Part shown: positions 25,610 through 27,617 of the stretch, piece by piece
Position numbering within the stretch: the stretch's first letter is position 1
Layout: the number at the start of each line of letters is the position of its first letter
Assembly: GCA_028291615.1 (NCBI GenBank)
Contig: JAQGHM010000081.1
Coordinates: forward strand, 1-35,960
Length of the DNA stretch: 35,960 nt
Reading direction: 5' to 3'
Source: Phycisphaerales bacterium
Lineage (GTDB): Bacteria; Planctomycetota; Phycisphaerae; Tepidisphaerales; Tepidisphaeraceae
Program-made: the position numbers and the translations under genes
Notes under the pieces: generated by a model
The model's input: the letters and a program-made list of their open reading frames with translations, nothing else
What the model was told of the DNA's origin: nothing
Databases searched by the model: none

Positions 25610-25693
25610 CTGTGGCGGCAGGACTCGAACCCGCAGAGCGTTGCCGCGCGCGATTAACAGTCGCGACCGCTACCAATTACGGTTTACGCCACA
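25610..25693 (-). tRNA. tRNA with GUU anticodon (Asn) and a long variable region
   Basis: Acceptor TGTGGCG pairs with CGCCACA and the discriminator is G. The anticodon arm is CGCGA-CTGTTAA-TCGCG, giving anticodon GTT, and the T arm is GCGGG-TTCGAGT-CCTGC. U1-A72 and G73 agree with bacterial tRNA-Asn. Two things are odd. First, three or four bases separate the acceptor from the D stem (ACCG/CGGT) instead of two. Second, the variable region is 14 nt instead of five and could form GCG-GCAA-CGC. Total length is 84 nt, as in class II tRNAs. It lies 54 bases after the EF-Tu-like gene and completes the cluster. Anticodon and stems are clear; function in decoding is inferred. Confidence 0.85.
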
Positions 25694-25747
25694 AAGAGAC
25701 GCGGCGGTGAACTCGCCGTCACGCCGGCGAGTTCACCCCGCGTTCAA

Positions 25748-26953
25748 TCACTCGAAGATCGTCTGCACGATCCCCGAGCCGATCGTACGCCCGCCTTCGC
25801 GGATCGCGAAGCGCAGGTCGGGCTCCAGCGCGACCGGCCGATCGAGTTCGACCTCGATCCGCACGGTCTGGCCCGGCAGTACCATCTCAACCTCGTCGGC
25901 CAGCGTGAGCCGGCCAGGCAGGTCGGTGGTGCGGAAGTAAAACTGCGGCCGATACCCGCTGTAAAACGGCGTGTGCCGACCGCCCTCTTCCTTGCCCAGC
26001 ACGTACACCTCGCCCGCGAACTTGCGGTGAGGCTTGATCGAGCCCGGCGCCACGAGCACCATGCCGCGGCAGAGGTCGTCCTTGTCGATGCCGCGGAGGT
26101 TGAGCCCCGCGTTGTCGCCCGCGACGCCTTCCTCCATCGCCCGGCGGAACTGCTCGATGTCCTTCACGACGACCTTGCGGGTCGTGTCGTCAAGGCCGAC
26201 GATCTCGACGGACTCGCCCTTGCGCACGCGCCCGCGCTCGATCCGCCCGGTGGCGACCGTGCCGTGGCCCTCAATCGAGAAGACGTCCTCGATCGGCATG
26301 AGGAACGGCGCGTCCAGCCGCCGCCGCGGCTCCGGCACGTACGTGTCCATCGCCGCAACGAGCTCGTCGATCGCCCGGCAGGCGTCGTCGTCCGTCGGGT
26401 TACGCATCGCCGCCAGCGCGCTGCCGCGGATCACCGGCAGCTCGTCGCCGGGGAAGCCGTAGCGCGTGAGCAGCTCGCGCAGCTCCAGCTCGACCAGGTC
26501 CACCAATTCGGCGTCCTCGACCAGGTCCGCCTTGTTCAGGAAGACCACGACTCGCGGCACGCCGACCTGCCGCGCCAGCAGGATGTGCTCCCGCGTTTGC
26601 GGCATCGGCCCGTCAACCGCTGATACGACCACGATCGCGGCGTCCATCTGCGCCGCGCCGACGATCATGTTCTTGATGTAGTCGGCGTGGCCCGGACAAT
26701 CGACGTGACCGTAGTGCCGCACGGCCGACTCGTACTCCAGGTGCGAGCTGATGATGGTTACCGTCTTGGTCTCGTCACGCACGTTGCCGCCCACCGCGAT
26801 CTCCTGATAAGTCTTGGCGCGGATGTCTCCGGGAAAACGCCGGGCCGACCGCAGCGACAGGGCCGCCGTCAACGTGGTTTTGCCGTGATCGATGTGACCG
26901 ATGGTCCCGACGTTTACGTGCGGCTTGGCGCGCACGAAGGTCTGCGTGCCCAT
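25748..26953 (-). CDS. Divergent EF-Tu paralogue
   Basis: The 401-residue protein spans all three EF-Tu domains. Elements of the GTPase are present: GHIDHGKT (19-26), DCPGH (85-89), NKAD (140-143) and SAL (178-180). Domain 2/3 blocks such as PFLMPIEDVFSI, EEGGRHTPF and YRPQFYFRTTD are conserved. Switch I is not: the near-universal RGITI reads KTVTI at residues 63-67. The preceding segment (EIAVGGNVRDETK) is unlike the usual DNAPEEKA and about four residues longer. His71 and the Thr of TI are kept. RGTV in domain 2 is HGTV here. Normal EF-Tu carries aminoacyl-tRNA to the ribosome; this form probably does so for a limited set. AGGAGG lies just before the ATG. It is embedded in a tRNA cluster on the same strand. 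Confidence 0.92.
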   Translation of the reverse strand: MGTQTFVRAKPHVNVGTIGHIDHGKTTLTAALSLRSARRFPGDIRAKTYQEIAVGGNVRDETKTVTIISSHLEYESAVRHYGHVDCPGHADYIKNMIVGAAQMDAAIVVVSAVDGPMPQTREHILLARQVGVPRVVVFLNKADLVEDAELVDLVELELRELLTRYGFPGDELPVIRGSALAAMRNPTDDDACRAIDELVAAMDTYVPEPRRRLDAPFLMPIEDVFSIEGHGTVATGRIERGRVRKGESVEIVGLDDTTRKVVVKDIEQFRRAMEEGVAGDNAGLNLRGIDKDDLCRGMVLVAPGSIKPHRKFAGEVYVLGKEEGGRHTPFYSGYRPQFYFRTTDLPGRLTLADEVEMVLPGQTVRIEVELDRPVALEPDLRFAIREGGRTIGSGIVQTIFE

Positions 26954-27043
26954 GATGGGCCTCCTGAAAGTGAAAGGGCCGGGGTTCGAGCCCGGCCGTG
27001 GTAATGGAAACGCCGTCCTCGCACGACGGCCCGATGGAAACAG
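26954..27043 (-). other. EF-Tu leader with two tRNA-arm-like hairpins (possible tRNA remnant)
   Basis: On the minus strand two hairpins follow each other. The first, GCCGTC-GTGCGAG-GACGGC (27012-27030), looks like an anticodon arm with T33 and anticodon GCG (Arg). The second, GGCCGGG-CTCGAAC-CCCGGCC (26977-26997), looks like a T arm with C in place of T54. No 5' acceptor strand or D arm fits, so it is not a complete tRNA. It could be a decayed tRNA or a mimic used to regulate the EF-Tu-like gene, whose AGGAGG at about 26960-26965 follows directly. Confidence 0.5.
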
Positions 27044-27118
27044 TTCGCGGGGCTGGAGTCGAACCAGCGGACACCGGGTTCAAAGCCCGGGATTTGTACC
27101 GACACAAACTACCCGCGA
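27044..27118 (-). tRNA. tRNA-Gln(UUG)
   Basis: The 75-nt cloverleaf has acceptor TCGCGGG/CCCGCGA and discriminator A. The anticodon arm is CCGGG-CTTTGAA-CCCGG (anticodon TTG), the variable loop TGTCC, and the T arm GCTGG-TTCGACT-CCAGC. The D stem pairs best as TTTG/CAAA with a three-base linker (TAG) after the acceptor, a spacing shared with the Asn-type tRNA of the cluster. U1-A72, typical of Gln tRNAs, is present; A73 is unlike the usual G73. Confidence 0.9.
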
Positions 27119-27133
27119 GAGTCGACGCACAAG

Positions 27134-27206
27134 CTGCCCCGCCAGGGATCGAACCTGGAATCTTCCGGTTCAGAACCGGCTGCGTTCCCAGTTACGCCAC
27201 GGGGCA
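27134..27206 (-). tRNA. tRNA-Gln(CUG)
   Basis: The 73-nt cloverleaf is regular. Acceptor TGCCCCG pairs with CGGGGCA, discriminator G. The D stem is GCGT/ACGC with loop AACTGGGA. The anticodon loop TTCTGAA gives anticodon CTG, the variable loop is AGATT, and the T arm CCAGG-TTCGATC-CCTGG. The outermost anticodon-stem pair is G-A. U1-A72 and G73 are the normal glutamine features. It lies 15 bases from the next Gln tRNA. Confidence 0.93.
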
Positions 27207-27301
27207 AGGAATCAAAGGATGAATGGTGAAGGATGAATCAGAGTGGTTCATCCGCGTCTTCATTCATCCTTCATCCTTCCCGCCTTCATCCTTCTCTTCA
27301 G
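27207..27301. repeat. GGATGAA/TTCATCC inverted repeat between tRNAs
   Basis: The 95-base gap between tRNA-Ala and tRNA-Gln(CUG) contains several GGATGAA copies at about 27215-27240, and the complement TTCATCC/TTCATTC at about 27247-27292. A long imperfect hairpin could form. It resembles a simple dispersed repeat, and no further tRNA is present. Confidence 0.6.
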
Positions 27302-27372
27302 TGGAGCCGCTCGGATTTGAACCGAGATACCGACCGTGCAAGAGTCAGGTCCTGCCGTTAGACGACGGCCCC
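27302..27372 (-). tRNA. tRNA-Ala(UGC)
   Basis: The 71-nt cloverleaf has acceptor GGGGCCG/CGGCTCC with discriminator A. The third pair is G3-U70, the hallmark recognised by alanyl-tRNA synthetase. The D stem is GTCT/GGAC, the anticodon loop CTTGCAC gives TGC, and the T arm is CTCGG-TTCAAAT-CCGAG. It is a fully credible alanine tRNA that reads GCA and other GCN codons. Confidence 0.93.
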
Positions 27373-27385
27373 ATGTCTTCATCAA

Positions 27386-27457
27386 AGCCCGATGTCGGAT
27401 TCGAACCGACGACTCAACCCTGGCGAGGTCGCGTGATGGCCCCTTCACCAATCGGGC
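27386..27457 (-). tRNA. tRNA-Gly(GCC) with C33
   Basis: The 72-nt cloverleaf is well paired: acceptor GCCCGAT/ATCGGGC, discriminator T, D stem GTGA/TCAC, and T arm GTCGG-TTCGAAT-CCGAC. The anticodon stem is CGACC/GGTTG with loop TCGCCAG, so the anticodon is GCC. The base before it is C33 instead of the near-universal U33. A normal tRNA-Gly(GCC) exists at 13946. This is the first structural gene after the attenuator-like terminator. Confidence 0.88.
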
Positions 27458-27473
27458 GCAAATTCAGTCCAAC

Positions 27474-27507
27474 AAAAAACCCCGAAACCTTGTCACGGGT
27501 TTCGGGG
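27474..27507 (-). terminator. Intrinsic terminator between leader ORF and tRNA-Gly (probable attenuator)
   Basis: On the minus strand CCCCGAAACC (27507-27498) pairs perfectly with GGTTTCGGGG (27489-27480) across an 8-nt loop. Six Ts follow at 27479-27474. It points along the tRNA/EF-Tu cluster. It lies 35 bases after the leader ORF stop and only 16 bases before the first tRNA, so transcripts from upstream must pass it to reach the cluster. It could also simply end the operon at 27680-30459. Confidence 0.85.
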
Positions 27508-27542
27508 CTTGGTGTCTTATTAAAGACGTTCCAGAGCGCGCG

Positions 27543-27617
27543 TCACCCGGTCAACTCATTCTGTTGATTGCCGCCCTGTGCGGCGTTGGGGTCGAATTGG
27601 GCGAATGCGTAGAACAT
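27543..27617 (-). CDS. 24-residue leader peptide rich in Asn, Ala, Gln and Gly
   Basis: The ORF runs from ATG 27617 to TGA 27543. GGGGGTGA, a seven-in-eight match to the extended anti-Shine-Dalgarno complement GGAGGTGA, ends five bases before the ATG. The middle of the peptide reads NAAQGGNQQN, encoded AAC GCC GCA CAG GGC GGC AAT CAA CAG AAT. Over the ORF the codons GCA, CAG, CAA, GGC and AAT each occur twice, which are the cognate codons of the five tRNAs in the cluster. A hairpin GCCGC-ACAGG-GCGGC lies inside this run. The position upstream of a terminator and the cluster suggests a ribosome-stalling sensor. It is too short to be an ordinary protein; that it is translated is inferred. Confidence 0.65.
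   Translation of the reverse strand: MFYAFAQFDPNAAQGGNQQNELTG

Follow-up and report, generated by a model that had tools for sequence, protein, structure and literature searches.

A divided second set of tRNA genes with an EF-Tu paralogue behind candidate attenuator leaders in a Phycisphaerales bacterium

Why would a bacterium keep tRNA genes behind a short open reading frame (ORF) and a transcription terminator? The question is raised by contig C171 of the draft genome of a Phycisphaerales bacterium (6.9 Mb, 87% complete; the own genome hereafter), the 35,960-nt window analyzed here, to which all window coordinates refer. On the minus strand of positions 25609–27617, a 24-codon leader ORF is followed by an intrinsic terminator, four tRNA genes, a gene for a divergent EF-Tu paralogue (EF-Tu2, gene tuf2), and a fifth tRNA gene. 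The initial annotation of this stretch had described the leader, terminator, five tRNAs, and EF-Tu, and had proposed that the leader senses the supply of the tRNA species that its own operon encodes. All of these features were found at the places given, and the locus is confirmed as real (Table 1). We propose that C171 is one of four operons that jointly encode a second tRNA set and a spare EF-Tu, and that their short leader ORFs probably act as ribosome-stalling attenuators.

Leader ORFs and the arrays behind them

The own genome contains 64 tRNAs by Rfam. In the fetched loci, ARAGORN typed 27 tRNAs that lie in arrays and 37 scattered ones, an ordinary set for 18 amino acids. The spare set consists of four operons on four contigs, with 28 tRNAs for all 20 amino acids, including a Glu tRNA that matched Rfam and was typed by eye. 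C171 carries Gly, Ala, Gln, Gln, EF-Tu2, and Asn; C242 carries 13 tRNAs (Thr, Arg, Arg, Ser, His, Asp, Tyr, Cys, Ser, and four Leu, with Thr and Ser(CGA) being ARAGORN calls without support from a second tool); C347 carries Val, Val, Ile, Lys, Met, and Phe; and C372 carries Lys, Trp, and Pro plus Glu. Lys is the sole amino acid served by two arrays. In a sample of 26 genomes of the family, seven with arrays were inspected closely (the own genome, G001, G012, G018, G019, G020, and G021), and the other 19 were assessed by tRNA count alone.

We inspected 14 leader regions, namely those upstream of 12 arrays and at two further places in G018, and a short ORF was present in all of them, with a varying fit to the array. 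In the own genome, the leaders are built from the amino acids of their arrays: Gly/Ala/Gln/Asn in C171, Thr/Arg/Ser/His/Asp/Tyr/Cys/Leu in C242 (MKTLACQLHSRSCMRTAYRSRCTRCCRHLSVRSDRALYSG), Val/Ile/Lys/Met/Phe in C347 (MMQRKQNFIFKIVKMARNVGVIFVVVFVVGMF), and Glu/Lys/Trp/Pro in C372 (MFDKRPPIPAAPRPEPRPKWFEPEPRPAIA); the ribosome-binding sites of C242 and C372 look weak by eye. In the C171 leader, 14 of the 23 residues after Met are Gly, Ala, Gln, or Asn, against 6.1 expected (binomial 5e−4), and the best ORF of a random 330-nt window of the own genome equaled this leader in 113 of 20,000 cases. This match is modest when taken alone, but it becomes decisive because a similar match (p < 0.05) was found at eight of nine further array leaders. 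The suggestion that the operon serves the translation of long proteins rich in Asn, Gln, Gly, and Ala was not borne out, as the other three operons of the own genome serve the remaining 16 amino acids. The connection to GatCAB raised in the initial annotation likewise gained no support from these data.

Each of the four own leaders fits its own array and none of the other own arrays; over the 24 possible pairings, the true one scored 20.4 and the runner-up 9.1. When the last 24 codons before the stop were scored for the ten arrays with partial sets (leaving out the near-complete sets of G019, G021, and G020, and the G018 EF-Tu2 locus, which has no tRNA), the sum of leader–array z-scores was 41.5 in frame and 0.6 and −5.2 in the other two frames, and only 1 of 200,000 permutations of arrays and leaders was as good as the true pairing. 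In this test, the set of locus L225 of G001 was taken without Met, which was added for the blind test described below, and the Asp of locus L092 of G018, which lies at the end of a contig, was assigned by eye. The leaders had initially been chosen by eye, and the comparison was repeated without hand-picking by taking the best ORF of each 350-nt window (600 nt for G012a) and ranking it against random 330-nt windows of the own genome, which also served for the loci of relatives. The empirical p was <0.01 in seven of the ten arrays and <0.05 in nine. Among ordinary tRNAs of the own genome used as a control (30 of the 37), it was <0.01 in one case and <0.05 in two, and among 28 canonical tRNA-Thr–tuf loci of relatives, it was <0.01 in none and <0.05 in one.

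The leader sequences mostly diverge across genomes, with their composition retained. The leader of the Gly-Gly-Ala operon of G001 (locus L226, MTFAFAQLVPATAGQAAAQRQAAGAGTNGRAQQGNAQRAGPG) begins MTFAFAQLVPATAGQ..., a start similar to that of the C171 leader; that of the Cys-Leu-Leu-Leu array G012c is MIVFASNITLCLTQPGTGLCGLLCCPR; and that of EF-Tu2 in G018 (MFVNNFNWDQNNQAAAGLILILFVGG) has 13 Gly, Ala, Gln, or Asn in 25 residues (P 0.0055). Where the array is nearly complete, so is the leader: all 20 amino acids occur within 32 codons in G021, 19 within 31 residues in G019, and 18 within 31 residues in G020, and these were equaled by 28, 364, and 3230 of 200,000 random peptides, respectively; an alternative reading of the G020 leader as a 17-aa ORF is unenriched (P 0.55). 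In 20,000 random windows, ORFs of at most 32 aa contained 20 amino acids in no case and 19 in 25 cases.

The simplest deflationary account is that the hairpin merely terminates the operon upstream, that the small ORF arose by chance, and that the tRNAs are constitutive. A same-strand operon does lie upstream (27680–30459), but a leader and terminator ahead of Gly/Ala/Gln/Asn tRNAs or of EF-Tu2 are also found in G001, G012, and G018, where the genes upstream are different, and the permutation result also speaks against chance, making this account highly improbable. At these homologous loci (G001 L226, G012 L086, and G018 L085), the leaders are rich in the same amino acids as in C171 and are followed by a terminator, and the upstream genes differ by eye. 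The outcome that the initial annotation had named as refuting, homologous loci whose leaders are not enriched in these amino acids, was not observed at these loci, and the comparison across loci strongly supports the annotated idea that the leader would sense the supply of the operon's own tRNA species, with EF-Tu as part of the response.

Table 1. Elements of the C171 operon and their positions in the window
Feature	Positions	Strand	Basis or remark
Promoter-like motif TGTCAGRTY-N12-14-CGT	27635..27659	-	common to all four spare-tRNA operons of the own genome
Leader ORF MFYAFAQFDPNAAQGGNQQNELTG, 24 codons + stop, Gly/Ala/Gln/Asn-rich	27543..27617	-	ORF reading, composition tests
Candidate antiterminator strand CGGGT across leader stop	27545..27549	-	complements ACCCG in apex of terminator 5′ arm
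Intrinsic terminator, hairpin + T tail, 35 nt past leader stop	27477..27510	-	hairpin reading
Spare tRNA-Gly(GCC)	27386..27457	-	ARAGORN + Rfam
Spare tRNA-Ala(UGC), G3:U70 retained	27301..27372	-	ARAGORN + Rfam
Spare tRNA-Gln(CUG)	27133..27206	-	ARAGORN + Rfam
Spare tRNA-Gln(UUG)	27043..27118	-	ARAGORN + Rfam
EF-Tu2 (tuf2), divergent EF-Tu paralogue, 401 aa	25748..26953	-	TIGR00485 match
Spare tRNA-Asn(GUU), long variable arm	25609..25694	-	ARAGORN + Rfam

The five tRNAs are ARAGORN calls, each exceeding the Rfam gathering score. The apparent operon immediately upstream of the leader comprises a gene for a sigma factor of the extracytoplasmic function (ECF) type (29836–30459, minus strand) together with 28948–29805 and 27680–28951.

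Terminators, alternative hairpins, and the proposed attenuation

The leaders of the trp, his, leu, and pheST operons are ribosome-mediated transcription attenuators, and most of the leader regions described here resemble them in that a short ORF rich in the regulated amino acids is followed by a predicted terminator or by potential mutually exclusive hairpins. A terminator with a T tail lies 28–35 nt past the leader stop in five cases (C171 and C242 of the own genome, G001 L226, G012a, and G018 EF-Tu2). In these five, 5, 5, 6, 6, and 4 bp, respectively, can form between the sequence at the leader stop and the apex of the terminator 5′ arm, with the G012a ORF being taken from an internal ATG of a 136-codon frame; of 2000 shuffles, 286, 211, 82, 63, and 1222 gave a pairing as good. 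Between G012a (CCGGAT:ATCCGG) and G001 (CCGGGT:ACCCGG), both sides have changed and the pairing is kept. Seven other leaders (own C347, G019, G021, G020, G012b, G001 L225, and G018 L092) stop 0–4 nt ahead of a conserved stretch that can form two overlapping, mutually exclusive hairpins, in which paired cells make up 96.4% of 55 and 100% of 49, and a T run follows the hairpin pair after 9–14 nt in three of them (G019, G012b, and G018). A strict version of the hairpin pattern matched only G021 and G019 among 397 genomes of the class.

These terminators and overlapping hairpins are consistent with ribosome-mediated attenuation. A ribosome that reads through the leader would cover the leader stop, and the terminator would form. 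If the ribosome stalls at a hungry codon, the stop region would stay free to pair with the terminator 5′ arm, and with this arm sequestered, the tRNAs and EF-Tu2 would be transcribed. In the arrays of G021 and G019, which serve nearly all amino acids, one leader with 20 or 19 amino acids would report a shortage of almost any charged tRNA.

It is rather unlikely, in our estimate, that the leaders are translated sensors working instead by way of Rho access, RNA processing, or pausing, with no intrinsic termination. Such a mechanism would suit the observations that a clear T-tail terminator is present in only five of the 14 leader regions and that the C372 leader stops merely 25 nt ahead of the first tRNA, but C171 and the four other leaders with strong terminators hold them at a constant 28–35 nt. 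The leader region of G012c (L228, about 9290–9400) contains the segments AGCCCG-CGGGCT-AGCCCG-CGGGC, for which possible 1:2, 2:3, and 3:4 pairing, as in a trp leader, was noted by eye.

Origin and character of the spare tRNAs and EF-Tu2

Judged by sequence identity, the array tRNAs are a separate lineage. For 109 of 140 array tRNAs, a counterpart with the same anticodon was available in other arrays, in the core set of the own genome, and in nine viral loci, and the mean best identities were 80.1%, 64.5%, and 61.8%, respectively, with 104 of the 109 closer to other arrays than to the core; the core comes from one genome, the choice of the best of several tilts the comparison toward arrays, and the Arg of L230, among the four rows from G018, probably belongs to the ordinary tRNAs. 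The long variable arm is absent from all 14 Leu tRNAs of the spare set, which are 73–76 nt long, in contrast to the 82–84 nt of core Leu tRNAs. The spare Asn tRNAs have a long variable arm in the own genome and G012 and do not in G019, G020, and G021.

Meanwhile, the array tRNAs retain most discriminator bases and identity pairs. For ten amino acids (His, Cys, Asn, Asp, Leu, Ile, Lys, Pro, Tyr, and Val), the discriminator base matches that of the core, and deviations occur in some genomes for Gly, Ala, Gln, Glu, Met, Arg, Ser, and Thr; for Phe and Trp, the own bin holds no core copy for comparison. The deviations of Ala and Met stem partly from an apparent acceptor-stem bulge, and one extra bulged nucleotide was seen by eye on the 3′ acceptor strand in spare Met tRNAs (L225, L039, L084, L224, and L227) and spare Ala tRNAs (L084, L086, and L224). 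Three G:C pairs are a feature of initiator tRNA, and none of the five array Met tRNAs inspected has them. In the own genome and in G019, the spare set appears to supply elongator tRNAs with cognate identity elements for all 20 amino acids.

In two relatives, one array carries a complete or nearly complete set. The G019 array has 29 tRNAs that together serve all 20 amino acids, and its EF-Tu2 gene is flanked by Leu(CAA) and Ser(CGA); G021 has the same gene order, with 25 ARAGORN tRNAs plus a Glu tRNA recognized by eye (19–20 amino acids). The array pieces of G001, G012, and G020 keep this order; in G001, the contig ends soon past Gly-Gly-Ala. Six of the seven array genomes have 58–76 tRNAs in total and the seventh, G018 (58% complete), has 28, against 19–53 in the other 19 genomes. 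G012 is one contig, so the tRNA duplication is no binning artifact. An all-against-all comparison of 280 ORFs of at least 90 aa around the arrays, which is blind to genes of <90 aa or masked by antisense ORFs, gave 12 cross-genome groups, namely EF-Tu2 (own genome and G012a), an ORF antisense to tuf2 (G018 and G019), two ORF pairs in or beside arrays (one of which led to a small protein of G019 and G021), and eight others; apart from EF-Tu2 and this small protein, no shared neighboring genes were recognized in this comparison. The small protein, conserved and about 75 aa long, stands at the array end in G021 and G019 (L224, 11019–11246, plus strand; L084, 2765–2968, minus strand), with a C-terminus ending ...NGNLTLRPEAVFG and matching no Pfam family.

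EF-Tu2 scored 591.8 bits against the EF-Tu equivalog model TIGR00485 (cutoff, 522.4), and the motifs GHIDHGKT, DCPGH, and NKxD are intact in all four EF-Tu2 proteins, which were found in 4 of the 26 family genomes (own genome, G012, G018, and G019); absence elsewhere is uncertain because several drafts do not contain even a full canonical tuf. The own bin is itself without a canonical tuf, which was taken as genome incompleteness. In a quick maximum-likelihood tree of 94 of 145 EF-Tu rows (genome-contig rows thinned to every second), the four EF-Tu2 proteins form one group (SH-like approximate likelihood ratio test [SH-aLRT] 94) adjoining the family's own canonical EF-Tus (91 and 93 at the forks); their exact place is uncertain because their branches are long (end branches of 0.48–0.94 vs a tree median of 0.12). 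On this tree, EF-Tu2 is best read as an old paralogue of host-family descent. Phycisphaeraceae sequences fall among the tree rows of the host's class, by which the class was taken to be Phycisphaerae; the family is probably Tepidisphaeraceae. A phage origin of EF-Tu2 was rejected, as the viral EF-Tus lie elsewhere in the tree and EF-Tu2 lies beside the host family, albeit on long branches. Switch I does not set EF-Tu2 apart either: the KTVTI-type pattern by which the initial annotation would have searched for it is the ordinary form in Planctomycetota and several other phyla, and the EF-Tu genes among the matches listed by a search for it came from many phyla and mostly stood in the canonical tRNA-Thr/Tyr/Gly–tuf–tRNA-Trp context.

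Could the arrays be what is left of a large tRNA cassette from a phage or plasmid, without a current function in the host? Viral contigs with EF-Tu beside or inside tRNA arrays, and the scarcity of neighboring genes in common noted above, point that way. On the other side, EF-Tu2 groups with the host family and apart from viral EF-Tus, most discriminator bases and identity pairs are retained, and the leader–array match holds even where the set is split; we consider such a remnant improbable. A phage-derived tRNA cassette was rejected as the source, given the lower identity of array tRNAs to the nine viral loci (61.8%) than to other arrays (80.1%) and the position of EF-Tu2 beside the host family (SH-aLRT 94 and 91, on long branches).

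Possible purpose and relation to known systems

What shortage would such operons answer? Upstream of the four own operons, the leader ATG begins 42–49 nt past the first base of the motif TGTCAGRTY-N12-14-CGT, for which the own genome gave 13 matches and a reversed control gave 3; the motif was derived from the four array copies, and only the other nine matches are independent. One of these precedes, by 51 nt, the ATG of a gene for a KptA/Tpt1 RNA 2′-phosphotransferase (PF01885), one lies 46 nt before the ATG of a DUF5677 gene, one precedes a lone Met-like tRNA, and nothing notable was seen at the other six. This Met-like tRNA gene (C252; L042, 334–406), recognized by Rfam and not by ARAGORN, starts about 110 nt past the motif copy and was excluded from the count of 28 spare tRNAs. 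The upstream ECF-type sigma factor could be the reader of the motif. Furthermore, in the EF-Tu2 operon of G012, EF-Tu2 is separated from the tRNAs by a gene for an RNA ligase (PF09414; OB-fold domain PHA02142; L086, 9265–10353, minus strand). The links to RNA ligase and KptA suggest a response to tRNA damage, and the purpose of the system would then be to replace tRNAs destroyed by nucleases of toxins, phages, or defense systems. We favor tRNA loss over starvation as the trigger, in view of these links and of an output that consists of tRNA and not of amino acids; this is the least certain step of our proposal. In its fullest form, the proposal is a self-sensing tRNA insurance, in which a complete, silent duplicate elongator set with its own EF-Tu stands behind matching leaders, the 20-amino-acid leader acts as a universal sensor of any tRNA loss, and the response includes RNA-repair enzymes; we put this forward tentatively, with somewhat less than even confidence.

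The attenuators might instead sense amino-acid starvation or high translational demand, with more tRNA and EF-Tu scavenging amino acids or speeding translation and no tRNA damage involved. Leaders of the trp/his/leu type generally answer to charged tRNA (cf. PMC1183508), and the match is at the level of amino acids, not of isoacceptors. However, extra tRNA is no help if the amino acid is missing, the inspected arrays hold no biosynthesis, transport, or aminoacyl-tRNA synthetase gene, and the RNA ligase and KptA links also count against this account, which we regard as unlikely but credible.

Several observations weigh against our reading of matching attenuators that control a spare set. The leaders fit their arrays at the amino-acid level, and a codon-level match to the array anticodons was rejected because it is no better than codon usage predicts (11/14, 26/31, 22/22, 9/16, and 8/9 vs 11.2, 27.0, 20.4, 11.1, and 8.9 expected). 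The G018 L092 leader reaches only 0.083 in the blind test, the ORF starts are unclear in G012a and G012b, and the Asn/Gln/Ala/Gly-rich leader of G018 precedes EF-Tu2 without a tRNA recognizable by Rfam alongside. The candidate antiterminators, at just 4–6 bp, are each weak alone, and the G012a leader terminator lies about 450 nt ahead of the first tRNA (tRNA-Gly). No compensatory change was found in either conserved hairpin, four of the seven hairpin pairs are without a T run, and own C372 and G012c have neither a T-tail terminator nor the hairpin pair. The G021 array is present with no EF-Tu2 found there, indicating that EF-Tu2 is not indispensable. Finally, the repair purpose draws on one ligase and one of nine independent motif matches, where about three matches are expected by chance.

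Compared with the trp, his, leu, and pheST attenuators, whose outputs are biosynthesis or synthetase genes, the output here would be tRNA genes and EF-Tu, and the leaders would report on sets of 2–20 amino acids, where the known ones respond to one or a few. In the tufB operon of Enterobacteria, tRNA genes stand ahead of tuf, and the spare operon resembles both this operon and the Thr-Tyr-Gly-Thr-tuf cluster in that respect; unlike the spare set, which is a different tRNA lineage, canonical tRNA-Thr–tuf loci have no leader enriched in their amino acid (0/28 at <0.01). T-box riboswitches sense tRNA charging upstream of translation-related genes, and the proposed system would likewise sense charging ahead of such genes; in contrast to them, it would do so via translation of an ORF, and an Rfam scan of the window returned tRNAs only. 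The tRNA array units of Mycobacterium (PMC5966550) are similarly dense runs of many tRNAs, and the arrays here apparently differ in their embedded EF-Tu paralogue, matching leaders, gene order kept across genera, and division into four operons in the own genome. Phage tRNA sets have been proposed to replace host tRNAs cleaved by tRNA-targeting nucleases (PMC10264068 and PMC11555353). They share with the arrays the proposed role of a spare set against such nucleases, and viral contigs also have EF-Tu among tRNAs; the arrays are apparently unlike them in being chromosomal and in having matching leaders and a host-family EF-Tu.

Among the titles and abstract openings listed by searches of an open-license subset of PubMed Central, no leader-controlled, leader-matching tRNA operon and no chromosomal spare tRNA set with EF-Tu was described. 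Attenuation by leader peptides is textbook knowledge; tRNA genes as the matching target are apparently new, as far as these titles and abstract openings tell. If the proposal is true, a leader that uses all 20 amino acids would raise a general alarm whenever translation breaks down, and the system would show a route by which a bacterium outlasts tRNA-cleaving toxins, phages, or its own defenses. Orthogonal translation work may also profit from a second tRNA set that occurs naturally, together with an EF-Tu of its own.

Viral EF-Tu genes beside or inside tRNA arrays were observed on seven IMG/VR contigs of 49–436 kb (L215–L220 and L223), with up to 35 tRNAs on one of them (L216), and the EF-Tus of these contigs group with one from an Aquisphaera isolate (L205).

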